Assembly (NCBI GenBank): GCA_964036045.1
Contig: OZ038383.1
Location: forward strand, 117,390,431-117,454,430
Origin: Eutreptiella sp. 'Long Island Sound 2002'
Taxonomy: Eukaryota > Euglenozoa > Euglenophyceae > Eutreptiales > Eutreptiaceae
Direction: 5' to 3'
DNA: 64,000 nucleotides
Shown here piece by piece: positions 2,691-60,011 of the stretch (positions within the stretch are counted from its first letter, which is position 1; every line of letters starts with the position of its first letter). Both the position numbers and the translations under genes were made by a program. The notes beneath the pieces are model-generated. The model saw only the letters and a list, made by a program, of their open reading frames with translations. It did no database searches and was not told the DNA's origin.

Positions 2691-4918
2691 AAGCACCTAC
2701 TCCACTCGCAAACCCCCACTTTTTGTGGGTTCCACCCCTCAGAATGGCCCAAACGGACGCCTAGACCCCAATACCTACGCCCACTAGGCTGCAGCAAGCT
2801 ACAAGCTCAAGCCCAAACAGGTGGGTGCCCAAATGGGTCAACAAGGTCCATTAGGGATAAACAGATGACTTTTCTCAAAAATGATCCTAGACCGTGTGCG
2901 ACGCTAAAACAAGTGTTTTTGGACCGTTTTGAGGTGGTGGTGGCCCATTTTGGTCCTGCGAAAATCCCAAAATGCCTTGAAAATGGGTTGTTTTGGGACA
3001 AAAAAATGGGTCAAAAATGGGTCAACAACGCATTTTTCCAAACCTCATCCTGGACCATTTGGGGTGCACAAACGGGTGAATTGAGCCCTTTTTGAGACCA
3101 TTTTGGGGCATTTTGGCCCCTCAGAAGCCCAAAAAGCCTTGAAAGTGGGCCTTGTGGTGATGGGGTTGACTTGCAAGCTGATTTCAATTTGTCAAGAGCC
3201 ATCAATGTGTGAATCATTCTTGATGTCCCTCACCTGTCAAAGCTAATATTCCCTCCCCAACCAGCTTGGTACCAATATTCAGTCTTGATTAGGGTCACCG
3301 AGCCGGTGGAACCAGTCTTGGTTTTATACCCCTTTTTAGTGTCTAGGGTGGACCTACTAGGTTTAGCATCAGTAGCAGCAGCAAGCAAGCAAGCAAGCAG
3401 CAAACAACAAGCAGCAGCACGCGCGAAATGGGAAAAAAATCAGACCTCCGTCGTGGTGCTTCACATTTGGGTGCAATTTCGGAGGATGATACCTATGGGT
3501 GTGAAGTACAATCACACAAAGTTTGAGCAAAAAACTCAACGGTGGCTGCCGGGAAGGGGTTCGCAAGTGGCGGAGCTCAGTTTCAAAAACTGCAGTTCAG
3601 GGCCAAAAAAAGCCATTTTTTGGGCCAAAAAAGCCCTAGAACACATTCAAAACCGCCAAATGAAGGGAAACGGTGGGTACACTGCATGTGCTGCTTGACT
3701 CCCCCGTGTCAACGAGCTGTGTGCGGCCCTCTAACTCCATGATATGTGCCGGAAACGGCCCAAAAAGGCCACCAAAAGCTCCAAATGCCGACAGCCAAAA
3801 ACCAAGAATAGGCCATATCTTTGGCTACATGGCTCAAAATGCGATTCCGAGGGCACCTACTCCACCCGCAACCCCCCACTTTTTGTGGTTTCCAACCCTC
3901 AGAATGGCCCAAACATACGCCTAGACCCCAATACCTAGGCCCACTAGGCTGCAGCAAGCTGCAAGCTCAAGCCCAAACAGGTGGGTGCCCAAATGGGTCA
4001 ACAGGATCCATTCGGGGTAAAAAGATGACTTTTCTCAAAAATGATCCTCGACCATGTGTGACGCTAAGAAAAGTGTTTTTGGACCTTTTTGAGGTGGTGG
4101 TGGCCGATTTTGGTCCTCGGAAAATCCCCAAATGCCTTGAAAATGCGCTGTTTTGGGACAAAAAAAATGGGTCAAAAATGGGTCAAAAACGCGTTTGTCC
4201 AAACTTCATCCTAGACCATTTGGGGTGCACAAACGGGTGAATTGAGCCCATTTTGAGACCATTTTGGGGCATTTTGGCCCCTCAGAAGTCCAAAAAGCCT
4301 TGAAAGTGGGCCTTGTGGTGATGGGGTTGACTTGCAAGCTGCTTTCAATTTGTCAAGAGCCATCAATGTGTGAATCATTCTTGATGTCCCTCACCTGTCA
4401 TAGCTAATGTTCCCTCCCCCACCAGCTCGGTCCCAATATTCAGTCTTGATTAGGGTCACCGAGCTCGTGGAAACAGTCTTGGTTTTATGCCCCTTTTTAG
4501 TGTCTAGGGTGCACCTACCAGGTTTAGCGGCAGCAGCAGCAAGCAAGCAAGCAAGCAAGAAAGCAAGCAAGCAGCAAGCAACAAGCAGCAGCACGCGCGA
4601 AATGGGAAAAAAATCAGAACTCTGTCGTGGTGCTTCACATTTGGCTAAATTTTTGGTGGATGATAAGTATGGGTGTGAAGTACAATCACACAAAGTTTGA
4701 GCAAAAAACTCAACGGTGGCGGCCGGGAACGGGATTCGCAAGTTGCGGAGCTCAGTTTCAGAAGCTGCAGTTCAGGGCCAAAAACAGCCATTTTTGGGCC
4801 AAAAAAGCCCTAGAACACATTCAAAACCGCCAAATGAAGGGAAACGGTGGGTACACTCCATGTGCTGCTTGACTTCCCCATGTCAACGAGCTCTTTGCGG
4901 CCCTCTAACTCCATAATA
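2691..4918 (+). repeat. 1.15-kb repeat array, forward units left of the transposon
   Basis: Forward copies of the 1.15-kb unit; the CCGGAAACGG anchor is at 3749. Each unit contains a (CAAG)n/(CAG)n tract, a block with AAAATCCCAAAATGCCTTG, and the segment ending CTCTAACTCCATGATATG. The second unit is interrupted at 4918 by the 6.5-kb transposon and resumes at 11452. Open frames across the array simply repeat with the unit and change frame between copies, so none is called as a gene. Confidence 0.93.
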
Positions 4919-4943
4919 CTTAGGCGTCACAAGTTGCCCACCC
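4919..4943 (+). repeat. Left terminal inverted repeat (25 bp)
   Basis: Begins CTTAGGCGTCACAAGTTGCC and ends CACCC. It is an exact reverse complement of 11427-11451. One more base pair (A4918/T11452) could extend it to 26 bp. Confidence 0.95.
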
Positions 4944-5340
4944 CCCACCTGGCGCTATGGCCCACGGAAGTCCATGTTGTAATGAGGGGGAAAGTATGTG
5001 AAAAGGGGTGTTATTTTTTGGGTACCCAAACCCCCCTGGTGGCAACATGCAAAAACAAGGTGTGTATTTCAAATATATGCCATTATTTGCATTTCTGGAA
5101 ACACACAGATTTTCAAAATTAAGACATTCAATCACCAAAATATAGTGTTGTTTTACATTTAGACCACTGCATTCCAGTGTGGGGGGGGGGGGGGCTGCCT
5201 ATTTTTCTCTCCCCTTTGTTCGAGGTTGATCACAGAACCCCCCTATACACCACAGATGAGGGAACCCCAAACATACCTTTCATTGAAGCACACAGAAAAC
5301 TATCCCAAAGCATGTACTTGTATTTCCTATTTTAACCAAC
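4944..5340. other. Left subterminal non-coding region of the transposon
   Basis: No gene is evident. It contains a G-run of about 12 near 5180 and AT-rich stretches. It separates the left TIR from the first palindrome and is probably 3' flanking sequence of the second gene. Confidence 0.6.
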
Positions 5341-5664
5341 CTGGCCGAAATTTCGGCCCGCTCTTCGAAAAATGTCCAAACACATGGTCCTATTTGACAG
5401 ACAGGCCTAAGCTGGCCGAAATTTCGGCCAGGTCCATCGAAACTCCGAATGTGATCACTGAAATGGGTACCTAAGACAGTAGACATGAGCAAGGAACACA
5501 GGAGCAGTGACATTTGAACAGGGTGTGCAACATAATATACTCAATTACAAGCAAATACTTGCCACCTGACGAATCAAAGCAGACTTTTGCAGTGCCTATG
5601 GGGAAACACAATAATAAAAGGCTGAAGAGGCTGAGGACTGCATGCTGGCCGAAATTTCGGCCAG
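5341..5664. repeat. Palindrome cluster, 3' side of the second gene (three copies)
   Basis: Copies of CTGGCCGAAATTTCGGCCAG lie at 5341-5358 (18/20, last two bases differ), 5412-5431 (perfect) and 5645-5664 (perfect). The first two start 71 bp apart. The copy at 5412 is followed by GGTCCATCGA, an extension shared with the intronic copies. Confidence 0.95.
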
Positions 5665-5703
5665 ACTTCATGCTGACAGGCAATATAAGCAGCAGGACTG
5701 GCA

Positions 5704-8291
5704 TTAGCGCTTGCGCAGACCAGATGCACGGGGCTTCTTAGCACCTGTGTTAGCAGGCTGCTTGGCAGGGGCTGCAGCACCAGACTTGGCAGTGGCAGAG
5801 TTCTGTGACTGTGTGTTTCCACCCTGGGATGGTGAAAAATGATTCACAAAAGTATTCATACCTTTGCCAGTAGGGGCAACAGTGCCTGAGGAGGAAGCTG
5901 GGGTGGCCTGAGCGCACTGGGTGCCACTGGGTGAGGGGGCAGGGGCAGTTTTGGGTTTCTTCTTTGGAGTCTGTGTCTCTGGTTGCGACTCTGCCTCCCC
6001 ATCTTGCTCCTCAGGATCCTCATCTACATACCTAACCCCAGAACAATCCACAGGAAAACCTGCCCCCAAGTCGTGGTACACATCCTCCCATGACTTGGGG
6101 GGGCACGTGTCGGCGTTGGTGATACCTGCTCTGATGAGCTGAACAAAGTCATCGGGCACAACAGTCTCCTCACCCAAAAGGGCACACACAACATTACAGT
6201 CCTTGGAAAACCTGGTAGACATCATGCTTGCAAAATACACAGACAGAGTCCCCAGCAAAAACCAGTTGCCTGCCCGTTCTGGGACCGGAACCAGGCTCAA
6301 AAGAAATGAGAATATTTCAACAGGCATCACAGACGACATGGGTCCTTCAGTAAAAGCCACGTAACGGGGAAGCCTGTTATCAAAGGCAGTGGCAGAACAA
6401 ATGGAAACCAGATGGGACGTAGAAGTGTACAGCGGGGTCTTGCTTGACAAATTGTAAAGTGCAACATCACACTGATACATATCCTCAGCCACAGTGGCCT
6501 TCAAAGCAGCAACAGTGGCTTTCACATCAGCAGACTCACCCGCAATGAACACAGGCACACCGGACAAAAGCAGCTGCGCAACCAGGTTATGCAAACCAGC
6601 TGTATAGAGGCGGGGCACCTCAATGACACAAGCAGCAAAGGGCAGTGAACTAATGATACTGGGAACAGCGACTCCACAACGCATTGCCATCAGTTCCACA
6701 CGGCCTGACTCTGCAATGAGTTTGCCTGTGCTTGACTCAACGAGGGACTCCCTAGCACACTGGATACTGACCAGACCAGTATCAGATTTTTCACAAACAG
6801 GCTTAGCAACAAGATTCTGCAACAATCCCCGCAACCCCTCATATTTGGGTTCCTTCCAAAGAGGGGCCTTAATTACTGCTGACCACGGGGGCCAGAGGTT
6901 TTCTTCAGTCCAGGTCCAACTGCCATAGGTTACCTTCAGGTGTGATGCAATAGCGCACTGCCTTTTGGCCATCTCAATAGTACCAAGTGTAGCTGCAGAC
7001 AGGTGGTAGCACAGGGTGGGCTCCTATTGTGCATTAATTGAACGACACACAAGCTGGCCGAAATTTCGGCCAGGTCGGTCGATTTATTCGAATACAAACC
7101 CCTGTTTGACCAAAACATACCTGTGGTGTTGTTCACAAGCCCATTGGTAGCCGCATCGGGATGAAGAATGTGCCAGGACCACATCTGGGCCTTTTTAACA
7201 TCTTTTATAATTTTTTTGAGACCAGGTAGGGTACTTTTTGTCCCATCCATGTAACCTACGATCTCGCGAAGTCGGTCAGGCGTGATGCCTTCCACTTCCT
7301 TGAACGTACCCAGTGCGGGATGTAGTCCACGCTTTTCCATGGCTGCCATGGCGTCTACTGAAGGAAGACCCACAAATTTCACCAAACGCCCAACGCCACC
7401 CCACCGTTTGGCAACAGCACTCTGCACAGGAGAACATGTGGAACACAGAAGCTGGCCCAAATTTCGGCCAGGTCGATCGACAAAACCGAATTAATAAATG
7501 AAACACACCACAGTGCCTTCCTCGGCAGTAACACCACACTCTTCAAGCATAACAGTAATGTGATGGTACAGGGTGTACTCATTGGCATCCTCATCCTCAA
7601 GCCTATCCAGGAGTAGGGACATTCGCTCCGATGTGGTGGATGCTGAGCCAGCAGTGGTCTGGATTTGATGTAAGCCTGCAAGCCGGCGCCTAGTCCGCAG
7701 GGGGCAGTCCTGTTTGACTTCATAACCACCAAATACCAGGGTCCAATCCGGAGTCTCCATATTTTTCATCTCAAATTCGGTCTTGTGTTTTTGGGCAGCA
7801 GTGTAAACATGCTGACCCCCCAACAGAACCCAGCGAGTGGCTGTGCAACAGGAATATTCGTAACAGCAGGGTCGAAAATTCAGACGCGAAAACGGTACTA
7901 TCGAGAAGAATACCACAACACACATACGAGTGACTTTATAAAAAAGGAGATCCTGGATGTAATCCACAGGCGGGGCTGCCTTCAGATCGTCGTAGCGGCG
8001 TTGCACGCGATCATCCGAAATCCTACGGACCTGCCCAAATTTTCGGTCGTGGTCGATAATAATCTGATCCCACCGAACCTTTATTTTCGTCGTTGACGTA
8101 ACCCAGTCGGATAACTTGATGGAGGATGATGAATTTTTCTTTGGTGCGGCCTTAGGCTTCTTTTGAAGTCCCTGTGTGCTCGCCTGGTCCTCTTGAGACT
8201 GGGATTGCACTTGAGATTGCCCATTGTCTGCTGCAGGCTCACCATCTGGCGCAACAGCCATGTCCTGCGATACCCCTCCAGGCTCAGTCAT
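5704..8291 (-). CDS. Transposon gene 2: ParB/sulfiredoxin-like N-terminus, basic C-terminus, four exons
   Basis: The model is the complement of 5704-6992, 7121-7421, 7509-7840 and 7928-8291, giving 761 residues. Introns at 7927-7841 (87 nt), 7508-7422 (87 nt) and 7120-6993 (128 nt) have GTATGTG, GTGTGTT and GTATGTT donors and CACAG, TGCAG and TGCAG acceptors, and phase is kept through all four exons. Residues 1-60 are polar and Q/K-rich. Residues about 62-180 resemble a ParB/Srx fold: IKVRWDQIIID, an arginine-rich turn, APPV, then LLGGQHVYTAA at 127-137, where ParB and DGQHR families have GxxR/DGQHR, and later CPLRTRRRLAGLHQ. The middle (233-650) is unrecognised. Residues about 675-679 (KKKPK) and the end KKPRASGLRKR look like nuclear-localisation or DNA-contact tails. 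The ATG at 8291 is chosen because a polar tail follows; in-frame ATGs at 8357 and 8321 are possible. The fold assignment is tentative because the GGQH motif lacks the usual following arginine. Confidence 0.8.
7054..7073. repeat. Palindrome copy inside intron 3 of gene 2
   Basis: Perfect 20-bp palindrome within the 128-nt intron 7120-6993, followed by GGTCGGTCGA. In RNA it could fold as an 8-bp stem with an AAUU loop. Confidence 0.95.
7452..7471. repeat. Palindrome copy inside intron 2 of gene 2
   Basis: 19/20 match (CTGGCCCAAATTTCGGCCAG) inside the 87-nt intron 7508-7422, followed by GGTCGATCGA. Confidence 0.93.
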
Positions 8292-8410
8292 AAAATAAAG
8301 GGCTACATGGCAACATTTCATGAAGGGGAGAGTTCCCAGATAGCAAATAACAAGCACAGATTAACCAAAAAAGGACCAAAACGGACTGCCTGACACGAAA
8401 TTCGGATAAC

Positions 8411-8569
8411 CTGGCCGAAATTTCGGCCAGCACTGCTCTGCATGTCAAACCACTGTGTACAAATACCATTCTGAGAGGCTGGCCGAAATTTCGGCCAGAA
8501 CCTTAAGTCATTTGTGTTCTGGGGGTAGCCATATGACAAAACAACAAGTCTGGCCGAAATTTCGGCCAG
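8411..8569. repeat. Palindrome cluster upstream of gene 2 (three copies)
   Basis: Perfect copies at 8411-8430, 8479-8498 and 8550-8569, with start spacings of 68 and 71 bp and unrelated 48- and 51-nt spacers. They occupy the 370-bp interval between the end of gene 1 (8662) and the gene 2 ATG (8291), the nearest lying 120 bp upstream of that ATG. A promoter or operator role is plausible. Confidence 0.96.
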
Positions 8570-8661
8570 AAAAACATGAAACAGCAACTAGACACACCAA
8601 AATCACTGGCAATGCGTGGCAGAACCCATACCACAGTGACAAACACAGCTGCAAACATAAA

Positions 8662-10874
8662 TCAGTCCCAATCCTGGGTATCCACACCGATGTGTTCCGC
8701 CTCATCTAGGGCTTCAAAGGAGGCAACGCTATCTGCATCACGATCAATATCCTGGTCACTATCACAAGAGTCGACAGCAATGGAATCATCAAGGGCGGGG
8801 GGGGGGGTACTGGGCGGGGGGGGGCCGGGGGGGGTACTGGGGGGCCTCTGGCTCGGGGCTTCGGGGGTGGCTTTGGGGGCAAGGCAATTCCACCAGGAGC
8901 AGCAGCAGCAGCAGCAGGCGGTGCACGGTTGGCAGCGCGAATAGAAGCATGTGCAGTACGCAACACCCCTTGCTCGGCAGCAGTGCGGGCAGGTGCATTT
9001 GTCTGCAAAAAATCCTCAACACCCTCAGGAACCCTGGTACGCGCAACCAGATTTTGCATTGCATGCAACAGGACCACTTTTAAACGGTCTGTGGTGATTC
9101 GTGTCCTAGACATGGTACCGGGGAACGTCAAATCCTCAACTGCATCCAGTCTTCTCACCTCAACTTTATAGTCCGGAACGGGAACACAAATGGGCAGGCT
9201 CTGTGTATGGGCTGTCAAGATGAATTGTTTAAGATTGGCAGAGAACATTGCCACGGATCTCTCAGTCAGCACACCACGCAAAACTTTCTCTCCCGGTTGG
9301 ACAGGGGGAAGTGTCAGAAATGAATCAGACGACTGTTGGACACTAGTACAGGCAGTGTTGCGGCGACAGTGGGCTGAGAACCGACTCAGAAGTGCCTCAC
9401 TCAGCTCTTCAGAGTGGATACACCCTAGGGAGGCGGAATGCCACTGACTCCAAAACAAAAGAGCAACAGCGGTGGTTTTCACATACTCCGTGGTTAACTG
9501 TTCCTCGGGCTTTAGCATGTTCAGCATGAGCAGTAGGGACATCTCAAGTGCCTGCTTAGCTACAATACCGGAACCTGCCCCCCGTCCCTCCCAGTTGCAC
9601 TCACGAACCAAAGTCCCAATGCCGAAAGCAGCTGGACAATATGTGTACAGCAAAGCCTTAAGGGCTAATAACATACGCAAACCCTTGCGCTGAATGGGTG
9701 TCAAGTCCCGCTGGCTACTGAGCAGGGAAGTGACGCGCTCATCTAGTCTGCCTCTATTGGACGATGTGGCTAGCATGAGTCCAAGCAACGTCTTCTCCAT
9801 ATGGATGACCTTGACCTTGCGAGGGAGGATAGACCCAACCTGAAGGCTGTTCCCCTGCTCCAAAAACTTAATGAACGGCAGGAACGCCCTGTAGATCAAT
9901 TCAACGCAATACTTATAGCTATGCCATACTCCGTACACCAAAGGAAAACCCAACAGTAATTGTGGTACATTCCAGGGAACATAAGCAGCACCATAACACA
10001 GCTTAAGTAGGGCAAAGTGTATTTTCATGTCCACAAGCAGCGGAACACAGTGTCTGGTGCGGTGTTCCACACATGACAAATCAACCACGAGTTGCAAAAG
10101 CTCTTTGTGTGTGCCGGAGCGGAGCTCAGACAGGAAAAAGGGTCTCCAGTTGAGGGAACGAACATTTTTTCTGGCAATATCCAAAGGAGCACGAACCCAA
10201 ACTCTCTGAATACCTTGGTTGGCAACATCAATACGATCAAACAATGCTCTATGTGAGCGAAAGATGTCATCAGCAACCTTTGGTATCCTGGCCTCAATTT
10301 TGGCCAGCTCCGGCAGACCCCGGTATGCAGGTAGGGCAGTAGTGTGCAAAACAGCAACAGCTGTACAATTTAGGGTTAAGTCGGGTGAATGGGGATCAGC
10401 TCCCGACCTGTAACGCCTCAGGTTATCAAACCATATACAAACTTGCCTACGGTGCATGGTGTTCCACAAGTTGTGTGCTGCTAGTCCAGCACGATGGTGA
10501 ATGGACTCCTGCTTAGTGTTACACTGACCAAGGACTCCTACCTTACGGCGTTGGCGGCAGGACATAATACCCCAGTTGTAACCAGACCCACAGTTAGAGT
10601 ATGGGAGGGCCATACGGCGCAGCAGGCAGTATAGGGCATGGAACTGTGACAAAAATGTCATGTACCATCGTGGGGGCTTCTTCTCAGTGGCGGCGGCCTT
10701 CAACTGTGTCAGGGAGTGCCGGCTCCTGCGATTCTTCCGCAACAAGAGGCAGAATTGCAAAAGCTTTTGCAGAGTCCCACCACATAATGCATTTCGCAAC
10801 AGCCCTTTGGCTGTAGTAGCAAAAGCACCAGTAACTGCAGCATGTACAACATTGACAGTAATAGCAGAAGACAT
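8662..10874 (-). CDS. Transposon gene 1: candidate DDE transposase with proline linker and acidic tail
   Basis: A single uninterrupted frame from the ATG at 10874 gives about 665 well-composed residues. Candidate RNase H-like catalytic residues are D150 (VCIWFDN), D282 (LLVDMKIHF) and E360 (VIHMEKTLLGLM). A further conserved-looking block, PLVYGVWHSYKY, lies at 311-321. The family is not recognised; the triad is a reading of motif order and spacing and has not been aligned. A proline-rich linker follows (about 651-695). The frame that continues past it ends at 8706 with poor composition. One frame over, the sequence reads a convincing acidic tail (ALDDSIAVDSCDSDQ through DTQDWD) to a TGA at 8664-8662. 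The switch falls in G-runs at 8797-8807, 8816-8824 and 8827-8834. One base missing from a run, or a -1 slip, would restore one protein. An acidic tail could bind a partner such as the basic gene 2 protein, which is inference. Five palindromes lie upstream, the nearest 72 bp from the ATG. Confidence 0.78.
8797..8834. other. G-run tract where the gene 1 frame changes
   Basis: Runs of 11, 9 and 8 G (C on the coding strand) interrupt the proline-rich linker. The frames on either side differ by -1. A homopolymer-length sequencing error is the simplest cause; slippage or a true mutation is possible. Confidence 0.7.
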
Positions 10875-10945
10875 TAATGCTGAGACAAGAAAACAGCTAT
10901 GTAGGAGTGTATGGTGTAATACTCATGAACAACGACAATTGCAAG

Positions 10946-11246
10946 CTGGCCGAAATTTCGGCCAGGTGTGTTCAAAGGGGAAATAATTGCTTAAATGTTC
11001 AAAAATAGGAAAAGCTGGCCGAAATTTCGGCCAGCCCACCCAAAAACCAGAATATAAGTGCTTGAATAGTGAACAGACCAAAAAGCTGGCCGAAATTTCG
11101 GCCAGCCCTAAGAAATATGAAAATAACTTTGCCTATTCACCAGGAAACCAAAAAGCTGGCCGAAATTTCGGCCAGAAGGGTCAAAAGCTGCATATACACA
11201 TAGGTGTTTGCAATGTTACCCAAAACCTGGCCGAAATTTCGGCCAG
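10946..11246. repeat. Regularly spaced palindrome array upstream of gene 1 (five copies)
   Basis: Five perfect copies at 10946-10965, 11015-11034, 11086-11105, 11156-11175 and 11227-11246. Start spacings are 69, 71, 70 and 71 bp. The four 49-51-nt spacers share no evident homology beyond a purine-rich or AAAAC lead-in. The array lies between the gene 1 ATG and the right TIR, so it can serve both as promoter sites and as subterminal transposase sites. Confidence 0.97.
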
Positions 11247-11426
11247 CTTCAGAAAAACGTCAAATACAACACACTAGAAGACGGGGATACACAAGGCTAA
11301 CACATCAACACGTATTTCAACGGGTGTCACACAGCTCTGCCAACAACTTTGGTCACATACGTCAAATAACATACTCAAAGTAGAAATGTAGAATATTGTC
11401 AAATCGCGCGTATACGGGGTCCTAGA
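11247..11426. other. Right subterminal non-coding region of the transposon
   Basis: About 180 bp with no palindrome or gene between the five-copy array and the right TIR. Confidence 0.6.
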
Positions 11427-11451
11427 GGGTGGGCAACTTGTGACGCCTAAG
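11427..11451 (-). repeat. Right terminal inverted repeat (25 bp)
   Basis: Exact reverse complement of 4919-4943; ends CAACTTGTGACGCCTAAG. Host satellite sequence resumes immediately with TGATATGTGCC. Confidence 0.95.
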
Positions 11452-12255
11452 TGATATGTGCCGGAAACGGCCCAAAAAGGCCCCCAAAAGCTCCAAATGC
11501 CGACAACCACAAACCAAGAATAGGCCATATCTTTGGCTACATGGCTCAAAATGTGATTCCGAGGGCGCCTACTCCACCCGCAACCCCCCACTTTTTGTGG
11601 TTTCCAACCCTCAGAATGGCCCAAACCTACACCTAGACCCCAATACCTAGGCCCACTAGGCTGCAGCAAGCTGCAAGCTCAAGCCCAAACAGGTGGGTGC
11701 CCAAATGGGTCAACAAGGTCCATTAGGGATAAAACGATGACTTTTCTCAAAAATGATCCTAGACCATGTGTGACGCAAAAACAAATGTTTTTGCACCTTT
11801 TTGAGGTGGTGGTGGCCCATTTTGGTCCTCCGAAAATCCCAAAATGCCTTGAAAATGGGCAGTTTTGGGTCAAAAATGGGTCAAAAACGCATTTTTCCAA
11901 ATCTCATCCTAGACCATTTGGGGTGCACAAACGGGTGAATTGAGCCCATTTTGAGACCATTTTGGGGCATTTTGGCCCCTCAGAAGTCCAAAAAGCCTTG
12001 AAAGTGGGCCTTGTGGTGATGGGGTTGACTTGCAAGCTGATTTCAATTTGTCAAGAGCCATCAATGTGTGAATCATTCCTGATGTCCCCCACCTGTCATA
12101 GCTAATGTTCCCTCCCCCACCAGCTCGGTCCCAATATTCAGTCTTGATTAGCGTCACCGAGCTCGTGGAAACAGTCTTGATTTTATAACCCTTTTTGATG
12201 TCTAGGGTGGACCGACCGGGTCTAGAAGCAGCAGCAGCAGCAAGCAAGCAGCAGC

Positions 12256-12287: not shown

Positions 12288-15155
12288 CAAGCAGCAACAC
12301 GCGCGAAATGGGAAAAAATCAGACCTCCGTCGTGGTGCTTCACATTTGAGTGAAATTTTGGTGGATGATACCTATGGGTGTGAAGTACAATCACACAAAG
12401 CTTGAGCAAAAAACTCAACGGTGGCGGCCGGGAACGGGATTCGCAAGTGGCGGAGCTCAGTTTCAAAAACTGCAGTTTAGGGCCAAAACCAGCCATTTTT
12501 GGGCCAAAAAAGCCCTAGAACACATTCAAAACCGCCATACGAAGGGAGACGGTGGGTACACTCCACGTGCCGCTTGACTTCCCTGTGTCAACCAGCTCTT
12601 TCCGGCCCTCTAACTCCATGATATGGGCCGGAAACGGCCCAAAAAGGCCCCCAAAAGCTCCAAATACCGACAGCCACAAACCAAGAATAGGCCATATCTT
12701 TGGCTACATGGCTCAAAATGGGATTCCGAGGGCACCTACTCCACCCGCAACCCCCCACTTTTTGTGGTTTCCAACCCTCAGAATGGCCCAAACGGACGCC
12801 TAGACCCCAATACCTAGGCCCACTAGGCTGCAGGAAGCTACAAGCTCAAGCCCAAACAGGTGGGTGCCCAAATGGGTCAACAAGGTCCATTAGGGATAAA
12901 ACGATGACTTTTCTCAAAAATGATCCTAGACCATGTGTGACGCGAAAACAAATATTTTTGCACCTTTTTGAGGTGGTGGTGGCCCATTTTGGTCCTCCGA
13001 AAATCCCAAAATGCCTTGAAAATGGGCTGTTTTGGGTCAAAAATGGGTCAAAAGCGCATTTTTCCAAACCTCATCCTAGACCATTTGGGGTGCACAAACG
13101 GGTGAATTGAGCCCATTTTGAGACCATTTTGGGGCATTTTGGCCCCTCAGAAGTCCAAAAAGCCTTGAAAGTGGGCCTTGTGGTGATGGGCTTGACTTGC
13201 AAGCTGATTTCAATTTGTCAAGAGCCATCAATGTGTGAATCATTCTTGCTGTCCCTCACCTGTCATAGCTAATGTTCCCTCCCCCACCAGCTCGGTCCCA
13301 ATATTCAGTCTTGATTAGCGTCACCGAGCTCGTGGAAACAGTCTTGGTTTTATAACCCTTTTTAGTGTCCACCGTGGACCTACCAGGTCTAGCAGCAGCA
13401 GCAGCAATCAAGCACGAAAGCAAGCAAGCAGCAAGCAGCAAGCAGCAGCACGCGCGAAATGGGAAAAAATCAAAACTCCGTCGTGGTGCTTCACATTTGG
13501 GTGAAATTTTGGTGGATGATACCTATGGGTGTGAAGTACAATCACACAAAGTTTGAGCAAAAAACTCAACGGTGGCGGCCGGGAACGGGATTCGCAAGTG
13601 GCGGAGCTCAGTTTCAAAAACTGCAGTTCAGGGCCAAAAACAGCCACTCGTGGGCCAAAAATGCTCTGGAACACATTCAAAACCGCCATACGAAGGGAGA
13701 CGGTGGGTACCCTCCACGTGCCGCTTGACTTCCCCGTGTCAACCAGCTCTTTCCGGCCCTCTAACTCCATCATATGTGCCGGAAACGGCCCAAAAAAGGC
13801 CCCCAAAAGCTCCAAATGCCGACAGCCACAAACCAAGAATAGGCCATATCTTTAGCTACATGGCTCAAAATGCGATTCCGAGGGCACCTACTCCACTCGC
13901 AACCCCCCACTTTTTGTGGTTTCCAACCCTCAGAATGGCCCAAACGGACACCTAGACCCCAATACCTAGGCCCACTAGGCTGCAGCAAGCTACAAGCTCA
14001 AGCCCAAACAGGTGGGTGCCCAAATGGGTCAGCAGGGTCCAGTAGGGAGAAAAAGATGACTTTTCTCAAAAATGATCCTAGACCATGTGTGACGCTAAAA
14101 CAAGTGCTTTTGGACCGTTTTGAGGTGCTGGTGGCCCATTTTGGTCCTGCGAAAATCCCAAAATGCCTTGAAAATGGGCAGTTTTGGGACAAAAAATGAG
14201 TCAAAAATGGGTCAAAAACGCATTTTTCCAAACCTCATCCTAGACCATTTGGGGTGCACAAATCGGTGAACTGAGCCCATTTTGAGACCATTTTGGGGCA
14301 TTTTGGCCCCTCAGGAGTCCAAAAAGCCTTGAAAGTGGGCCTTGTGGTGATGGGATTGACTTGCAAGCTAATTTCAATTTGTCAAGAGCCATCAATGTGT
14401 GAATCATTCTTGATGTCCCTCACGTGTCATAGCTAATGTTCCCTCCCCCACCAGCTCGGTCCCAATATCCAATCTTGATTAGGGTCGGCGAGCTCGTGGA
14501 ACCAGTCTTGGTTTTATACCCCTTTTTAGTGTCTAGGGTGGACCTACTACCTTTAGCGGCAGCAGCAGCAAAAAAGCAAGCAAGCAGCAAGCAACAAGCA
14601 GCAGCACGCGCGAAATGGGAAAAAACCAGACCTCCGTCGTGGTGCTTCACATTTGGGTGAAATTTTGGTGGATGATAACTATGGTGTGAAGTACAGTCCA
14701 ACAAAGTTTGAGCAAAAAACTCAACGGTGGCGGCCGGGAACGGGATTCGCAAGTGGCGGAGCTCAGTTTCAAAAACTGCAGTTCAGGGCCGAAAACAGCC
14801 ATTTTTTGGGCCAAAAAATCCTAGAACACATTCAAAACCGCCAAATGAAGGGAAACGGTGGGTACACTCCATGTGCTGTTTGACTTCCTCGTGTCAACAA
14901 GCTCTCTCCGGCCCTCTAACTCCATGATATGTCCCGGAAACGGCCCAAAAAGGCCCCAAAAGCTCCAAATGCCGACAGCCACAAACCAAGAATAGGCCAT
15001 ATCTTTGGCTACATGGCTCAAAATGCGATTCCGAGGGCACCTACTCCACCCGCAACCCCCCACTTTTTGTGGTTTCCAACCCTCAGAATGGCCCAAACAT
15101 ACGCCTAGACCCCAATACCTAGGCCCACTAGGCTGCAGCAAGCTACAGGCTCAAG

Positions 15156-16640
15156 GTGACTTTTCTCAAAAATGATCCTAGACCATGTGTGACGCTAAGA
15201 CAAGTGTTTTTGGACCGTTTTGAGGTGGTGGTGGCCCATTTTTGTCCTCTAAAAATCCCAAAATGCCTTGAAAATGGGCAGCTTTGGGACAAAAAATGGG
15301 TCAAAAATGGGTCAAAAACGCATTTTTCCAAACCTCATCCTCGACCATTTGGGGTCACAAACGGGTGAACTGAGCCCATTTTGAGACCATTTTGGGGCAT
15401 TTTGGCCCCTCAAAAGTCCAAAAAGCCTTGAAAGTGGGCCTTGTGGTGATGGGGTTGACTTGCAAGCTGATTTCAATTTGTCAAGAGCCATCAATGTGTG
15501 AATCATTCTTGATGTCCCTTAGGGATAAAAAGATGACTTTTCTCAAAAATGATCCTAGACCATGTGTGACGCTAAGACAAGTGCTTTTGGACCGTTTTGA
15601 GGTGGTGGTGGCCCATTTTGGTCCTGTGAAAATCCCAAAATGCCTTGAAAATGGGCTGTTTTGGGACAAAAAAATGGGTCAAAAATGGGTCAAAAACGCA
15701 TTTTTCCGAACCTCATCCTCGACCATTTGGGGTGCACAAACGTGTGAACTAAGCCCATTTTGAGACCATTTTGGGGCATTTTGGCCCCGCAGAAGTCCAA
15801 AAAGCCTTGAAAGTGGGCCTTGTGGTGATGGGGTTGACTTGCAAGCTGATTTCAATTTGTCAAGAGCCATCAATGTGTGAATCATTCTTGATGTCCCTTA
15901 GGGATAAAAAGATGACTTTTCTCAAAAATGATCCTGGACCATATGCGACGCTAAAACAAGTGCTTTTGGACCGTTTTGAGGTGGTGGTGGCCCATTTTGG
16001 TCCTGTGAAAATCCCAAAATGCCTTGAAAATGGGCTGTTTTGGGACAAAAATGGGTCAAAAATGGGTCAAAAACGCATTTTTCCAAACCTCATCCTCGAC
16101 CATTTGGGGTCACAAACGGGTGAACTAAGCCCATTTTGACACCATTTTGGGGCATTTTGGCCCCTCAAAACTCCAAAAAGCCTTGAAAGTGGGCACTGTG
16201 GTGATGGGGTTGACTTGCAAGCTGATTTCAATTTGTCAAGAGCCATCAATGTGTGAATCATTCTTGATGTCCCTTAGGGATAAAAAGATGACTTTTCTCA
16301 AAAAATGATCCTGGACCATGTGCGACGCTAAAACAAGTGCTTTTGGACCGTTTTGAGGTGGTGGTGGCCCATTTTGGTCCTGTGAAAATCCCAAAATGCC
16401 TTGAAAATGGGCTGTTTTGGGACAAAAAATGGGTCAAAAATGGGTCAAAAACGCATTTTTCCAAACCTCATCCTCGACCATTTGGGGTGCACAAACGGGT
16501 GAACTAAGCCCATTTTGAGACCATTTTGGGGCATTTTGGCCCCGCAGAAGTCCAAAAAGCCTTGAAAGTGGGCACTGTGGTGATGGGGTTGACTTGCAAG
16601 CTGATTTCAATTTGTCAAGAGCCATCAATGTGTGAATCAT
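15156..16640 (+). repeat. Local expansion of a ~376-bp sub-unit, four tandem copies
   Basis: The block starting GACTTTTCTCAAAAATGATC recurs near 15160, 15535, 15914 and 16289. Successive copies are joined by TGATGTCCCTTAGGGATAAA, a junction absent from ordinary units. This points to unequal exchange within one segment of the 1.15-kb unit. Confidence 0.9.
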
Positions 16641-18509
16641 TCTTGCTGTCCCTCACCTGCCATAGCTAATGTTCCCTCCCCCACCAGCTCGGTCCCAATA
16701 TTCAGTCTTGATTGGGGTCATCGAGCTCGTGAAAACAGTCTTGGTTTTATACCCCTTTTTAGTGTCTAGGGTGGAGCAGCAGCAGCAGCAAGCAAGCAAG
16801 AAAGCAAGCAAGCAAGCAGCAAGCAACAAGCAGCACACACGTGAAAGGGGAAAAAACCACACCTCCGTCGTGGTGCTTCACATTTGGGTGAAATTTTGGT
16901 GGATGATACCTATGGGTGTGAAGTACAATCACACAAAGTTTGAGCAAAAAACTCAACAGTTCGCAAGTGGCGGAGCTCAGTTTCAAAAACTGCAGTTCAG
17001 GGCCAAAAACAACCATTTTTGGGCCAAAAAAACCCTAAAACACATTAAAAACCGCCAAATGAAGGGAAATGGTGGGTACCCTCCACGTGCCGCTTGACTT
17101 CCCCGTGTCAACGAGCTCTTTGCCGCCCTCTAACTCCATGATATGTCCCGGAAACGGCCCAAAAAGGCCCCCAAAAGCTCCAAATGCCGACAGCCACAAA
17201 CCAAGAATAGGCCACATCTTTGGCTACATGGCTCAAAATGCGATTCCGAGGGCACCTACTCCACCCGCAACCCCCCACTTTTTGTGGTTTCCACCCCTCA
17301 GAATGGCCCAAACGGACACCTAGACCCCAATACCTAGGCCCACTAGGCTGCAGCAAGCTACAAGCTCAAGCCCTAACAGTTGGGTGCCCAAATGGGTCAA
17401 CAGGGTCCATTCGGGGTAAAAAGATGACTTTTCTCAAAAATGATCCTAGACCATGTGTGACGCTAAAACAAGCGTTTTTGGACCTTTGTGAGGTGGTGGT
17501 GGCCCATTTTGGTCCTGTGAAAATCCCAAAATGCCTTGAAAACGGGTTGTTTTGGGACAAAAATGGGTCAAAAATGGGTCAAAAACGCATTTTTCCAAAC
17601 CTCATCCTAGACCAGTTGGGGTGCACAAACGGGTGAAATGAGCGCATTTTGAAACCATTTGGGGGCATTTTGGCCCCGCAGAAGTCCAAAAAGCCTTGAA
17701 AGTGGGCCTTGTGGTGATGGGGTTGACTTGCAAGCTGATTTCAATTTGTCAAGAGCCATCAATGTGTGAATCATTCTTGATGTCCCTCACCTGTCATAGC
17801 TAATGTTCCCTCCCTCACGAGCTCGGTCCCAATATTTAGTCTTGATCAGGGTCACCGAGCTCGTGGAAACAGTCTTGGTTTTATAACCCTTTTTGATGTC
17901 TAGGGTGGACCGACCGGGTCTAGAAGCAGCAGCAGCAGCAAGCAAGAAAGCAAGCAAGCAAGCAGCAAGCAACAAGCAGCAGCACGCGCGAAATGGGAAA
18001 AAATCAAAACTCCGTCGTGGTGCTTCACATTTGGCTAAAATTTTGGTGGATGATAACTATGGTGTGAAGTACAGTAACACAGAGTTTGAGCAAAAAACTC
18101 AACGGTGGCGGCCGGGAACGGGATTCGCAAGTGGCGGAGCTCAGTTTCAAAAACTGCAGTTCAGGGCCAAAAACAGCCATTTTTGGCCCAAAAAAAGCTC
18201 TGGAACACATTCAAAACCGCCCAATGAAGGGAAACGGTGGGTACACTCCATGTGCTGTTTGACTTCCCCGTGTCAACGAGCTCTTTCCGGCCCTCTAACT
18301 CCATGATATGTCCCGGAAACGGCCCAAAAAGGCCCCCAAAAGCTCCAAATGCCGACAGCCACAAACCAACAATGGCTCAAAATGCGATTCCGAGGGCACC
18401 TACTCCACCCGCAACCCCCCACTTTTTGTGGTTTCCAACCCTCAAAATGGCCCAAACATACGCCTAGACCCCAATACCTACGCCCACTAGGCTGCAGCAA
18501 GCTACAGGC

Positions 18510-19990
18510 TCAAGGTGACTTTTCTCAAAAATGATCCTAGACCATGTGTGACGCTAAGACAAGTGTTTCTGGACCGTTTTGAGGTGGTGGTGGCCCATTT
18601 TTGTCCTCTAAAAATCCCAAAATGCCTTGAAAATGGGCAGCTTTGGGACAAAAAATGGGTCAAAAATGGGTCAAAAACGCGTTTGTCCAAACCTCATCCT
18701 AGACCATTTGGGGTCACAAACGGGTGAACTGAGCCCATTTTGAGACCATTTTGGGGCATTTTGGCCCCTCAAAAGTCCAAAAAGCCTTGAAAGTGGGCAT
18801 TGTGGTGATGGGGTTGACTTGCAAGCTGATTTCAATTTGTCAAGAGCCATCAATGTGTGAATCATTCTTGATGTCCCTTAGGGATAAAAAGATGACTTTT
18901 CTCAAAAATGATCCTGGACCATATGCGACGCTAAAACAAGTGCTTTTGGACCGTTTTGAGGTGGTGGTGGCCCATTTTGGTCCTGTGAAAATCCCAAAAT
19001 GCCTTGAAAACGGGTTGTTTTGGGACAAAAAATGGGTCAAAAATGGGTCAAAAACGCATTTTTCCGAACCTCATCCTAGACCATTTGGGGTGCACAAACG
19101 GGTGAACTAAGCCCATTTTGAGACCATTTTGGGGCATTTTGGCCCCTCAGAAGTCCAAAAAGCCTTGAAAGTGGGCCTTGTGGTGATGGGGTTGACTTGC
19201 AAGCTGATTTCAATTTGTCAAGAGCCATCAATGTGTGAATCATTCTTGATGTCCCTTAGGGATAAAAAGATGACTTTTCTCAAAAATGATCCTGGACCAT
19301 GTGCGACGCTAAAACAAGTGCTTTTGGACCGTTTTGAGGTGCTGGTGGCCCATTTTGGTCCTCTAAAAATCCCAAAATGCCTTGAAAATGGGCTGTTTTG
19401 GGACAAAAAAATGGGTCAAAAATGGGTCAAAAACGCATTTTTCCAAACCTCATCCTCGACCACTTGGGGTCACAAACGGGTGAACTGAGCCCATTTTGAG
19501 ACCATTTTGGGGCATTTTGGCCCCTCAAAAGTCCAAAAAGCCTTGAAAGTGGGCATTGTGGTGATGGGGTTGACTTGCAAGCTGATTTCAATTTGGCAAG
19601 AGCCATCAATGTGTGAATCATTCTTGATGTCCCTTAGGGATAAAAAGACGACTTTTCTCAAAAATGATCCTGGACCATGTGCGACGCTAAAACAAGTGCT
19701 TTTGGACCGTTTTGAGGTGGTGGTGGCCCCTTTGGTCCTGTGAAAATCCCAAAATGCCTTGAAAATGGGCTGTTTTGGGACAAAAAATGGGTCAAAAATG
19801 GGTCAAAAACGCATTTTTCCAAACCTCATCCTCGACCATTTGGGGTGCACAAACGGGTGAACTAAGCCCATTTTGAGACCATTTTGGGGCATTTTGGCCC
19901 CGCAGAAGTCCAAAAAGCCTTGAAAGTGGGCGTTGTGGTGATGGGCTTGACTTGCAAGCTGCTTTCAATTTGTCAAGAGCCATCAATGTG
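18510..19990 (+). repeat. Second local expansion of the ~376-bp sub-unit
   Basis: Same segment and same TGATGTCCCTTAGGGATAAA junction as at 15156-16640, with copies beginning near 18515, 18893, 19270 and 19648. Sharing the junction suggests the expansion arose once and was then copied with the larger unit. Confidence 0.9.
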
Positions 19991-20253
19991 TGAATCATTC
20001 TTGCTGTCCCTCACCTGTCATAGCTAATGTTCCCTCCCCGACCAGCTCGGTCCCAATATTCAGTCTTGATTGGGGTCATCGAGCTCGTGAAAACAGTCTT
20101 GGTTTTATACCCCTTTTTAGTGTCTAGGGTGGAGCAGCAGCAGCAACAAGCAAGCAAGAAAGCAAGCAAGCAAGCAGCAAGCAACAAGCAGCACACACCC
20201 GAAAGGGGAAAAAACCAGACCTCCGTCGTGGTGCTTCACATTTGGGTGAAATT

Positions 20254-25756: not shown

Positions 25757-26635
25757 CAATGGGGGGGGGGGCACGAAATTGATGGGGGGGGGGGGGCTAG
25801 GAAGTCGATTGCGGGGGGGGGGCTATGAAATTGATGGGGGGGGCTATGACATTGATAGGGCAGGGGGCTATGAAATTGAATGGGGGGGACCTATGAAATT
25901 GATGGGGGGGGCATGAATTGAGGGGGGGGGGTATGAAATTCATGGGGGGGGGATATGAAATAGATGGGGGGGTGGGCTATGAGATTGAGGGAGGGGGGCT
26001 ATGAAATTGCTACGGGGGTCTATGAAATGGATTTCGGGTGCCTATGCAATTGATGCATGGGAGGGGGCTATGAAATTTATGGGGGGGGGCTATGAAATGG
26101 ATGGGGGGTAGGGCTAGGAAATTGATGGGGGGGGGGCTGTGAAATTGATGGGGCAGGGGCTATGAAATGGATGGGGGGGGCTACTTAATTGATAGGGGGG
26201 CATATGAAATCGATCGGGGGGCTATGAAATCGATGGGGGGGGGGGCTATGAAAGTTATGGGGGAGGGGCTATGAAATGGATGGGGGGGGGGCTATGAAAT
26301 TGATGGGCGGGGCTATGAAATGGATGGGGGGTGGCTATGAAATGGATGGGGGGGGGCTATGAAATTGATAAGGGGGCATATGAAATTGATGGGGGGGCTA
26401 TGAAATTGATGGGGGGGGGCTATGAAATTGATTGGAGGGGGCTATGAAACTGATAGGGGGGCGTATGAAATTGATGGGGGGGGCTATGAAATTGATGGGG
26501 GGGGCATATGAAATCGTTTGGGGGGGGGGGCTATGAAATTGATTGGGGGGGGGCTATGAAATTGATAGGGGGGGCTATGAAATCAATGGGGGGGCTATGA
26601 AATTGATTGGGGGGGCTATGAAATTGATCAGGGGG
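25757..26635 (+). repeat. G-rich ~20-bp minisatellite
   Basis: About 40 or more degenerate copies of GGGGGGGCTATGAAATTGAT with variable G-run length (about 5-12). Four or more closely spaced G-runs recur throughout, so G-quadruplex formation on the plus strand is likely. Non-coding. Confidence 0.93.
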
Positions 26636-30358: not shown

Positions 30359-31930
30359 CTAGACCGACACAATATTGAGAAAAACAGGCCAGAGCACTGA
30401 TCCGAGCCCCACCAGTGAGACCTTGACCGGGCTGTGATCGCCCTCGCTGAGTCCGGCTTTCATGGTAAGATTGATGTCTGCATTGGGGCTAGAACCGCTC
30501 AGCAGTGAGTGCAGGTCTCTCAGCGCATCAAAGGCCCATGAGGGCTTGTGTCCTATGGCTGACACCAACTTTGCAAGGTCTACAAGCGTGTGCGGCTGCG
30601 CCGCTTGGTTGAAGACCGAGAGTACGGGAATAATGGCATCTACAAAGGTGGGCCAACTTTTGACTTTCTCCACATGGAATGTCTGCGGCACCTCTTCCGA
30701 AAGTGCAAGCAAGCCCACAGCAAATTGTCACAAGAAATCCGGCTAGCCAAGGCCCTTGTCGAGTGCCGAGTTCACGTTATGAAGGATCGTGAGAACTTTG
30801 GAAAAGTGTTTGGACTTCATTGCTGAGTTCGCTTCTGTCACACTTGCTGTTTGAAGGTACTTCATCCACCATGCTCGAAGAAGGACATTTTCAACGCTAC
30901 TAGGCCATGCATAGCTGCTAAGACAGGACGACAGTTGTATCCCGTCAATAATCTTTTTCATGATGAACGTCAGGCCGTGAGTGGACTTGTAGCCGGTCAA
31001 CGGCGTTTCCAGATGGCCCGTGGCGATCGACATTTTTTCCTTCGGAATATCCTTCACGGTGGCAACTACCTTTTTCAGCACCTCGGCCATACGTTTTGCC
31101 TCAGCCAGCGGAAGGTTATTGTGGGCAGCTATGTGGATTGAGGGTGAGGAGTCGGTTGGGCACTTGGGCTGTTCATGACTCTTGACGGCTACCACGCTGA
31201 CCATCGGGGCTTCAACTGTAGGGCAGTACACCGCCATGGAGACCCGTAGCTTCGGCTCAGACACAAAGGAACCCATTGGCAGGAGTTTGTCTGGGACTAC
31301 TGTGAGGAGCCACGGCAAATGTTTGCCATTTCGTTTGGCTATCCATCTGGCGACCACCAGGTAGAACCAAAGATTGCCCAGGAGGATTCTGCCTTTGTCG
31401 ACTTCCGCCACGTCACCGTTGAGGAGATCCACTATCATCTCTAGCTCGGACCCCAATTTGTTCTTGAGACCGTCTGCAACGTCTTTGGCAACCACCAGGT
31501 TTATAACGCCTGCCACCATCAGCCGAACGTCGGCTTCAGAGACGGTGGAGCCTATCTGTGCCATTTTGCTAAAACCACAAGCAAACACGCAAAAATGCTC
31601 TACAAGTACAGTGGCTCACTGCACACACGCATGCGCACACACACACCACCCGACGAGCAAAACCAAAGCTCAGGCACGGCTGAGCTAAGATTTGATGCAG
31701 ACATTCGGCATACGACGGCCACGAGTACTGCGATGTGGCGATCAAAAGGGGCACGTCCGTGTTGGAGGACGGCCTGCCGTGCAGCACAGAGCACATCGGG
31801 GTAACAAATTCATGTAGTTGTTGATTTTGACCCCTGAGATCTCTTGTTTCTTGTGTAGCACCACCGGAAGGAGCCCAGTTTCCCCTTCTTTGATGCGATT
31901 TACATGCAGGACATCTTCATCCATGCTCAT
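30359..31930 (-). pseudogene. Unrecognised gene-like region, possibly two exons, with two in-frame stops
   Basis: A minus frame from 31588 reads 281 helical, coding-like residues (MAQIGSTVSEADVRLMV onward, then LVVAKDVADGLKNKLG). It stops with TAG at 30745-30743 and TGA a few codons later, then continues in the same frame for about 120 good residues (VGLLALSEEVPQTFHVEKV) to 30359. A possible first exon is 31930-31806, starting MSMDEDVLHVNRIKEG. It joins in phase to 31568 through an intron with a weak GTTACC donor and a TTTTAG acceptor. No domain is recognised. Two stops within 15 codons suggest recent inactivation; a short missed intron seems unlikely because no GT-AG pair of plausible length spans them. 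Confidence 0.45.
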
Positions 31931-53010: not shown

Positions 53011-53094
53011 GGGGTTGCCCTTGGGGGGGGAGGAGGCTATTCTGCCCTGGTTTGGGGTGCAGGGCCTGCTCGGCCCTACACTTTTGGTCCTAAA

Positions 53095-54226
53095 AAGGGC
53101 CCATTTTCAACGCATTTTTAAATTTTCCATGGGCCAAAACACGTCACCACGGGCTCAAAATGGTCTAAAAACACTTGTTCGAGCATCCCAAATGGTCCAG
53201 GATCACTTTTGCAAAAACGTGTTTTTGACCCATTTTCAACCCACTTTCGGTCCCAAAGCGGCCCATTTTCAAGGCATTTTGGGATTCTCAAGGGCCAAAA
53301 CACATCACCACGGGCTCAAAATGGGCTGAAAACACTTGTTCGAGCATCCCAAATGGTCCAGGATCATTTTTGGAAAAACACGTTTTTGACCCATTTTTGA
53401 CGCATTTTTGGTCTTGAAACGGCCCATTTTCAAGGCATTTTGGGATTTTCCATGGCCCAGAACGCGTCAGCACGGGCTCAAAACGGGCTAAAAACACTTG
53501 TTTGAGCATCCCAAGTGGTTTGGGAACAACTTTGAAAAAAATCATTTTTTTCGCCCCGGGGACCCTGGTGAACCCACCGTTGGCCCCCACCGTGTGCGGG
53601 CCGGGCTGCCCTCGAGCTCCACCAAGTGACCACTGGTACGGGGGTCTAGGCGTCTCGTTGGGCGATTTTGAGGCTTGGAGAGCACAAAACGTGGGGGGTT
53701 GCGGGTGGACTGGATGCCCTCGGAATCGGATTTTGAGCCACGTAGCCCAAGATACTCCCCGTGCCTGGTTTCGGGGGGTTGGTGCACATTGCGCACCTTT
53801 TGGGGCTTTTTGGCGCCTTTTTTGGGCCGTTTCTTGGACATATCGTTGAGTTGAAGGGCACTAGAGGGCTCTTTGACACGGCGAAGTCAAGCCGCAGGTG
53901 GAGTGTAGCCACCGTTTCCCTTCGTTTGGACGTTTTGCCCGGCTATGGGGGCTATTTTGGGCGAAAAAAGGCTGTTTTTGGCCCAAAACTGCGCAGATTT
54001 GGGAGGGCACCTCCCGACTTGGCCCCCCCGCCCCGGGCCGCCACCGGTGAGGTTTTGGCTCAAAACTTGGATTTGGCAAGGCCACCACCTAGGCTCTAGG
54101 ATGGCTAGAGTAGAGTAGAGCCCGGAGCGATGAGGCGGAGCGATGGCCAAAACAGAAAGGAGAAGTGCTTGCTTGTTGCTTGTTGCTTGCTTGCTTGTTA
54201 GCTAGATTTAAGGGGAGAGGGGTGTA
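53095..54226 (-). mobile_element. TA-flanked TIR element E1, inverted, outer end truncated
   Basis: Ends with GGGAGAGGGGTGTA at 54213-54226, followed by TAATATATA. It reads as the reverse complement of E2: reversed ~165-bp sub-repeats (53100-53560), then the block shared with the 1.15-kb satellite unit. The expected outer TIR near 53095 is missing. Confidence 0.7.
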
Positions 54227-54272
54227 GTAATATATATATTACTACACCCCTCTCCCCTTAAATCTAGCTAAC
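54197..54272. repeat. Perfect 76-bp palindrome at a head-to-head junction
   Basis: Arms of 36 bp begin GTTAGCTAGATTTAAGGGGA, and the TATA centre is itself palindromic. The similarity continues outward as diverged inverted arms of about 1.1 kb (E1 and E2). Confidence 0.95.
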
Positions 54273-55766: not shown

Positions 55767-56482
55767 TTCAAGGCATCATTCATCAAGGCACAGACCACTG
55801 GGGTCCTGAAGGTGATGTTGCGGCTACGCTTCGACCCGGTGGCGACATGCCCTTCAGCAAGCGCGTGGCAGGGGTACCTCCGGCCCCTCAGGTGGCCTGC
55901 CTCTTCAATGAGGGAGTTTGGCACAAGGACACTGGGTCATGGAGTGGCTTGGAGGTGCGCCGGATCATGGAACGGGATCAGGCAAGCCACGCATGCTTCT
56001 TGGCTAAAGGCAAGTCATTGCTGTGTTTTTGTAGTGTGACCCCGCTCCTTGTGATGCCCCGGCAGTGGGTGATCCCGTGCATTTTGCATTGCACCATGGC
56101 GATCGGTCGCCTGTAGCAGGCTTTCAGTAGGAAGGAGTTGGAGGGGCTATCCGCTGCGGACAAGCTCCGCCTGGAGGGCGACCTTCGGGACCATAAGACA
56201 CGATGGTCCATCTTCCACTCTCGGAGTCCGGACGGGGAGGTGTTGAGGGCTTTGTTTGATGCATGGCCCCTGCTAGCATGCCGGCTCTGCATCCCCACCA
56301 CGGCTCGGAAGTATGGGGCGGTCATGGCCATGGGGTTGCTGTTGCGGGATTGGTATAGGACAACTCAAGCGGGGAATCTTGTGTGTCACACCGTTGCCAA
56401 GGAGTATCACCTGCAATGTTGCCCCGGCACAACGTCAAAGTACATGGTTTTTCTGCAGTGCAATTGTGACTCGGTGATGTAG
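55767..56482 (+). pseudogene. Transposase-like relic with ILHC motif
   Basis: Plus frames read ACLFNEGVWHKDTGSWSGLE, then PRQWVIPCILHCTMAIGRL with a TAG at about 56116, and in the same frame LRLEGDLRDHKTRWSIFHSR, FDAWPLLACRLCIP and KEYHLQCCPGTTSKYMVFLQ to a stop at 56482. The IP-x-ILHC-x-MAIGRL helix resembles the D/H-x-R segment of eukaryotic DDE transposases and the fragment at 39806-40312. A change of frame near 55900-56030 and the stop show decay. Confidence 0.4.
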
Positions 56483-56889
56483 GGTATTCGTCCGTGGGGG
56501 TTCATGATGTTCTCGGGGGATGTGCGGGAAACACTTAACCGGTTTGAGAAGCACGCACACAACGAGCATAGTGCGCGAGGTGGAGGACAACGAACATATT
56601 GCGCGAGGTGGAGGGTTGTTTGCGGATGAGGGGTGGCAGTGGGCAGCCTGCGGCAGCAGTCAGCGGTGAATAGGGAGAGTGCAGTACTGGAGCAGTGCTT
56701 GGGGTGGGGGTTCGTGTATTTCGACATCCATGTCTTGGTCCATGGTTGTGTTTGGGCTTCGGCTTGTCGCGCCCGTGAGGCCTTGGAGGTCACAGTTGCA
56801 CATCAGGCGCTTCATAGACCTCCTGTTTTTGTCACTGATGGCACAACCCCGAGCGGGACTGAGCCAAGAAGCGTGGCAAGCCATCCTAG
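56483..56889. other. Stretch without a supported gene
   Basis: A short local duplication occurs near 56560-56610 (CGAACATATTGCGCGAGGTGG versus CGAGCATAGTGCGCGAGGTGG). Confidence 0.4.
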
Positions 56890-58822: not shown

Positions 58823-58826
58823 TTAC

Positions 58827-60004: not shown

Positions 60005-60011
60005 GATTGGA

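Follow-up and report, generated by a model that had tools for sequence, protein, structure and literature searches.

A two-gene DNA transposon with iterated palindromes, and a sister family with an altered palindrome, in the genome of Eutreptiella sp.

The window analysed here is a stretch of 64,000 nucleotides from the euglenophyte Eutreptiella sp. 'Long Island Sound 2002' (contig OZ038383.1), and its positions 4919-11451 constitute a DNA transposon of 6,533 bp that is intact at both ends. We read this element, with a probability of roughly 0.7, as an autonomous two-gene transposon of the cut-and-paste type, in which the product of gene 1 would cut and join DNA and an element-encoded protein, likely that of gene 2, would bind a 20-bp palindrome iterated along the element. 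Judged from sequence comparison, the lineage is not placed in any described superfamily and probably represents a new family, perhaps a new superfamily. An earlier note, made from the DNA letters alone, had proposed a complete and self-contained two-gene DNA transposon, and this is borne out by element ends found genome-wide, by target-site duplications (TSDs) and by a sister family with the same layout. No paper on the element was found among the openly licensed literature.

The terminal inverted repeats (TIRs), CTTAGGCGTCACAAGTTGCCCACCC, form a perfect 25-bp pair at 4919-4943 (plus strand) and 11427-11451 (minus strand), as the earlier note had seen them, and TIR bases 2-25 have no further occurrence in the window at up to three mismatches, with none in shuffled sequences. 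The element interrupts a single satellite unit, about 1.16 kb long, of which empty counterparts are also present in the window. The rejoined flanks align over their full length with nine other window stretches (1,268-1,282 aligned bases, 87-94% identity), and eleven empty junctions, in ten plus-strand units and one inverted unit, confirm the clean interruption of the satellite. The commonest form of the empty junction is CTCCATGATATGT, and the occupied form reads CTCCATAATA / element / TGATATGTGCC. Comparison with empty units identifies TAATA (4914-4918) and TGATA (11452-11456) as the two copies of a 5-bp TSD with one mismatch; because of this mismatch, the TSDs of other copies were also checked.

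Across the genome searched (2.28 Gb, 2,205 contigs), the exact 25-mer end occurs 449 times per strand, with 0 occurrences of the reversed control. With a 421-bp end probe, 40 of 1,274 first-look candidates were scored as matches, making that count a lower bound. Twenty of these 40 matches were sampled together with the window copy, and both ends are present in 18 of the resulting 21 stretches; the other three, with no recognisable right end within the extracted sequence, were left out of the TSD count. The TSD is an exact 5 bp in 16 of the 18 two-ended copies and has one mismatch in two, including the window copy, and the termini of copies with both ends read CT..AG. Near-full-length copies account for 14 of the 18 (the window copy, L035, L036, L038, L040-L042, L044, L045, L047, L048, L050, L052 and L053), the 13 besides the window copy being 94.5-98.9% identical to the window copy, and four carry internal deletions and measure 2.96-4.24 kb. 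On contig C1, the 90 ends among the 100 matches listed include 33 pairs within 20 kb, of which 17 span 6,360-6,603 bp, 13 are shorter and three are longer. The host carries many copies of the family, which is apparently young, and the element seems to have been active not long ago.

Gene 1 lies on the minus strand (8706-10874, 722 amino acids as read, in a protein cluster of 267 members) and is a single long open frame of 738 amino acids from stop to stop. Its relatives number 24 by protein search and 67 by a gene 1 profile, many of them shared, in clusters of up to 267 members, each protein search having scored only the roughly 8,000 candidates with the most words in common. Across three lineages, the third represented by P0024 (37% identity, 2.15-kb contig, acidic tail), the majority residues include D150 (in WFDN), D282 (in VDMK) and E489, E490 and E493 (in SEELxEALLSR), together with further conserved acidic residues. 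These positions make gene 1 a candidate DDE transposase, for which D150-D282-E490 is a plausible candidate triad. Searches of GTDB species genomes confirmed no relative of gene 1; among IMG/VR contigs, gene 1 and the start of gene 2 have no confirmed relatives, and the TIR and the palindrome have no exact occurrence.

The long minus-strand gene recognised by the earlier note is upheld with one correction, namely that its end is out of frame in this copy. The frame is lost in a C-rich run at about 8789-8845, leaving the last ~30 residues out of frame, and the likely original 3' end lies in another frame at 8662-8790 (minus strand, start approximate), encoding the acidic tail ...VDTQDWD found in P0002. 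A gene 1 of 735-738 amino acids with an acidic tail nearly the same as that of P0002 is present in five of the 14 near-full-length copies, and the frame stops elsewhere in eight others. Slippage at the homopolymer-rich run may be frequent. A similarly shifted gene 1 tail is found in P0001, which represents the largest cluster (267 members).

A real possibility, held at clearly less than even odds, is that the element is a divergent member of a described superfamily (KDZ, the CMCT group with Plavaka and Transib, or hAT5) that has drifted beyond profile detection. According to PMC12730594, the CMCT group comprises EnSpm, Mirage, Chapaev, Transib and Plavaka, DDE-type elements with 2-5-bp TSDs, C(2)C and H(3-4)H motifs between the second D and the last E, and mostly CA..TG termini; the same paper gives 5-bp TSDs for hAT5 as well, and TSDs of 8 bp for Zisupton. 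The window element resembles the CMCT group in its candidate DDE residues and in a TSD length that fits, but neither C(2)C nor H(3-4)H was seen by eye between D282 and E490, and its termini read CT..AG, not CA..TG. From KDZ (Zisupton, Dileera, Kyakuja) it is set apart by the 5-bp TSD in 18 of 18 copies, against the 8 bp of Zisupton. A Pfam search of 19 gene 1 proteins (alignment A1) also speaks against a described superfamily, returning no transposase family up to E = 10; its sole matches were two unrelated families, each hitting one of the 19 proteins (E 0.2-0.28). A D...D...E arrangement with a long helix-predicted stretch before the last residue is usual in several superfamilies, which favours such an origin to the extent that the low-confidence helix prediction obtained here can be followed.

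Gene 2, also on the minus strand, is predicted to consist of four exons joined across GT..AG introns and to encode 761 amino acids, in agreement with the spliced second gene of the earlier note. Exon 1 (7928-8291) is followed by intron A (7841-7927, 87 nt), exon 2 (7509-7840), which contains the sequence GGQHVYTAA resembling a ParB P-motif, intron B (7422-7508, 87 nt), exon 3 (7121-7421), intron C (6993-7120, 128 nt) and exon 4 (5704-6992), the last matched by the sister family at 31-37% identity. The GT..AG boundaries are present in 11 of the 14 copies for intron A and in all 14 for introns B and C, each of which contains a palindrome. Further support for intron A comes from the sister family, in which an insertion, containing stops in some copies, occupies roughly the corresponding position. 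Six of the 14 copies keep the joined frame open to its end. An alternative acceptor for intron C broke the frame and was rejected. Protein search returned 32 relatives of gene 2, in clusters of 248, 175 and 134 among others, and one protein, P0008, has the start of gene 1 joined to the end of gene 2; we read it as a deletion copy, which places the two genes together in one element.

The palindrome, CTGGCCGAAATTTCGGCCAG, is 20 bp long and occurs in 11 exact and two one-mismatch copies, 13 of 13 outside the predicted exons; a 14th copy with three mismatches lies inside gene 1. In the rest of the window it has no occurrence at up to three mismatches, and shuffles gave 0, so that the many iterated palindromes of the earlier note all lie inside the element. 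Their positions are towards the left and right ends, in the intergenic interval and in two introns. Towards the left end there are two at 5341-5431 (starting at 5341, with one mismatch, and at 5412, a spacing of 71 bp) and an exact one at 5645-5664. An exact copy lies in intron C (7054-7073), and intron B holds one with a single mismatch in the window copy (7452-7471). Three lie between the genes at 8411-8569 (starts 8411, 8479 and 8550), and an array of five occupies the interval from gene 1 to the right end at 10946-11246 (starts 10946, 11015, 11086, 11156 and 11227), spaced by 69-71 bp. At each of the 13 sites, more copies carry the exact palindrome than any other version (6 to 13 of the 14 copies). 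Eleven bacterial stretches hold the palindrome once each and are taken as unrelated.

An arrayed spacing of 68-71 bp overall, with some neighbouring units sharing common flanks, is what could be expected if the palindromes were remnants of tandem repeats, or hairpins, with no protein partner. This explanation appears very unlikely, as the mean pairwise column identity over the 13 sites is 0.98 inside the palindrome against 0.30 in the flanks, and as a change on both arms separates the palindrome of the sister family from that of the window family.

That sister family was reached by a genome search with P0017, which returned 79 matches; 74 of 7,357 candidates were scored and eight loci examined. 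Its gene 1 is about 45% identical to that of the window family and the gene order is the same: seven of the eight loci have a part of gene 2 downstream of gene 1 in the same orientation; the remaining locus, L060, has no gene 2 part within its stretch, and L059 has an additional rearranged piece on the opposite strand. The last part of gene 2 is present in two of three downstream sister stretches. Seven loci reach the element end, and five of them start with CTTAGGCCACGCTAACTACCCGCC and so have the CTTAGGC start (CTTAGGCC) in common with the window family, while one reads CTTCGG and one is altered at its first bases. The copy L062/L069 is about 6.34 kb long and has both ends and an exact TSD (TGTAG/TGTAG); in L066/L068, if its altered end is accepted as such, the duplication carries one mismatch, and L060/L067 has no second end within the stretch examined.

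The sister palindrome is CTGGGCGAAATTTCGCCCAG, and the two families differ in it at positions 5 and 16, one on each arm. Counting sites with no more than two other mismatches in the 18 window-family copies and the sister stretches, positions 5/16 are C/G at 223 of 226 window-family sites and at 0 of 38 sister sites. The sister sites comprise 22 G/C, nine G/T, five A/C, one A/T and one C/C, the 14 G/T or A/C sites being one transition away from G/C. Nucleotide matches between the families fall mostly in coding stretches and palindromes (first 40 rows, two of the eight loci). Such a two-arm change is the trace that we infer would be left by a dimeric binding protein whose specificity changes. 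With two families in one genome that have the same genes and a palindrome differing on both arms, an element's own presumed binding site can be seen changing between relatives; the palindrome possibly changes together with its protein, and self-recognition by the accessory proteins of two-gene transposons would become directly testable.

En/Spm (CACTA), which encodes TNPA and TNPD, has repeated subterminal motifs to which a protein of the element binds, and MuDR encodes MURA and MURB. The window element shares with both the use of two element proteins; unlike them, it has no Pfam transposase match, carries its 20-bp palindrome also in introns and between genes, and makes a 5-bp TSD.

The ParB-like partner proposed by the earlier note stands as a suggestive likeness. 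Against a first set of 11 ParB-like proteins (SopB-type ParB matches being left out of the profile), gene 2 gave two weak collinear matches, one at the P-motif region (P 0.16) and one at the helix-turn-helix (P 0.032). Of 200 shuffles, 2 scored as high as the better single match; none of 400 reached the joint score of 37.0, but one of 18 control pieces, taken from other proteins of the element group, reached 36.9. When seven sister rows were added, the best match to the first set shifted past the motif (1 of 200 column shuffles as high) and no match to the P-motif was left. Bacterial ParB/parS is thus resembled in the palindromic sites and, in one test, in weak collinear profile matches, whereas the matches are not significant alone and the GxxR P-motif of ParB is replaced by GGQHVYT in the window family and GGQHIYT in the sister copies seen. 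No ParA turned up in the family searches of the two genes, none of which was aimed at ParA.

A related accessory class is reported from algae. According to PMC12477816, Ectocarpus Sola1-1_Ec32, a 21.5-kb element of the Sola superfamily, carries an accessory gene with ParB-like and DNA methyltransferase parts. The two elements are alike in being eukaryotic DNA transposons with a transposase and a second gene, here possibly with a ParB-like DNA-binding part; the window element differs in its 6.5-kb size, in having both genes on one strand and in the lack of a detected methyltransferase. Gene 2 might accordingly be imagined as a worn-out protein of this class whose catalytic half has been lost, and the weak collinear ParB-like match and a likeness, seen by eye, between part of exon 4 and methyltransferase motifs would agree with such a descent. 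We consider it unlikely. A comparison with six phage ParB-methyltransferases placed the match at GGQHVYTAA in the P-motif alone (score 23.5, P 0.049; 8 of 300 shuffles as high), and with the seven sister rows added it stayed at the motif with 12 of 200 column shuffles as high. Nothing in gene 2 matched the methyltransferase part of these six proteins by profile comparison, which left the by-eye resemblance of exon 4 unsupported, and the exon 4 protein has no Pfam match and no detected methyltransferase domain.

The proposed mechanism can be set out as follows. Gene 1 would encode an RNase-H-fold DDE transposase that cleaves at the CTTAGGC ends and inserts the element with a 5-bp stagger, as suggested by the TIRs, the TSDs and the conserved residues. 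A dimeric protein encoded by the element, most likely by gene 2, would bind the palindromes, and the bound protein would serve to load or pair the ends, to control or shield expression of the element, or to do both. The positions of the palindromes in introns, between genes and near the ends fit end assembly as well as control or shielding. A more ambitious version, which we regard as doubtful, is a new superfamily with CTTAGGC ends and 5-bp TSDs, combining a transposase, a ParB-derived partner and parS-like palindromes, in which the specificity of the partner and the palindrome would change together. Having a ParB-like partner would in itself be no novelty, because accessory proteins with such a part are reported in algal transposons (PMC12477816). 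No element matching the layout, the ends and the two palindrome versions together was found in the literature and databases searched.

Several observations weigh against this picture. Neither gene has a significant match in Pfam, PHROGs, NCBIfam or PDB sequences, and the DDE role of gene 1 is for this reason argued from conserved residues; the DDE candidate named by the earlier note has gained the three-lineage conservation of D150, D282 and E489/E490/E493 and no profile or structure match, and its new type of transposon is possible, short of proof. AlphaFold gave no usable fold for gene 1 and the start of gene 2 (mean pLDDT 36.7 and 30.6). Codon positions 1, 2 and 3 differ little among young copies, indicating scant constraint, and copies are read as drifting and decaying once inserted. 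An exact TSD is present in one sister copy only. Among young copies the palindromes vary by 1.6% against 0.65-1.7% in their surroundings and are not better conserved, and the case for selection on the palindrome consequently rests on the two-family comparison and on the identity from site to site. Gene conversion within elements could contribute to this identity and to the spread of the two-arm change. Lastly, gene 1 or a host protein could bind the palindrome.

This last point is the core of an alternative that we take seriously while giving it the smaller share of our confidence, in which the palindromes are bound by the gene 1 transposase or by a factor of the host and gene 2 serves some other function, for instance in counteracting silencing. 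Binding to subterminal repeats is common among transposases, and the weakness of the ParB evidence for gene 2 leans the same way. A lone host factor would not by itself account for the two palindrome versions that the two families of this genome keep; as to whether gene 1 or gene 2 is the binder, the present data favour neither. Binding by an element-encoded protein, likely that of gene 2, is retained here as the preferred reading.

Part of the palindrome variation may be explained by CpG transitions, because each palindrome contains two CpGs. In the 14 copies, transitions at CpG occur at about double the rate of those at other C/G positions (80 of 5,929 against 275 of 38,979 cells) and CpG observed/expected is 0.53; this depletion and transition excess give a hint of cytosine methylation of the copies.

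The satellite array that houses the element extends over window positions 2078-25296 in units of about 1.16 kb, with sub-arrays of about 378 bp at 15153-16653 and 18512-20011. Diverged relatives of the satellite reappear at 53093-63525, and near these diverged units lies a perfect 80-bp palindrome with a TA-rich centre (54195-54274). Elsewhere in the window, minus-strand open frames of 290 and 122 amino acids at 30362-31615, without a Pfam match, may be exons of one gene. A 22-bp tandem array of about 39 copies occupies 25763-26635, and a (TA)n run closes the window at 63713-64000.

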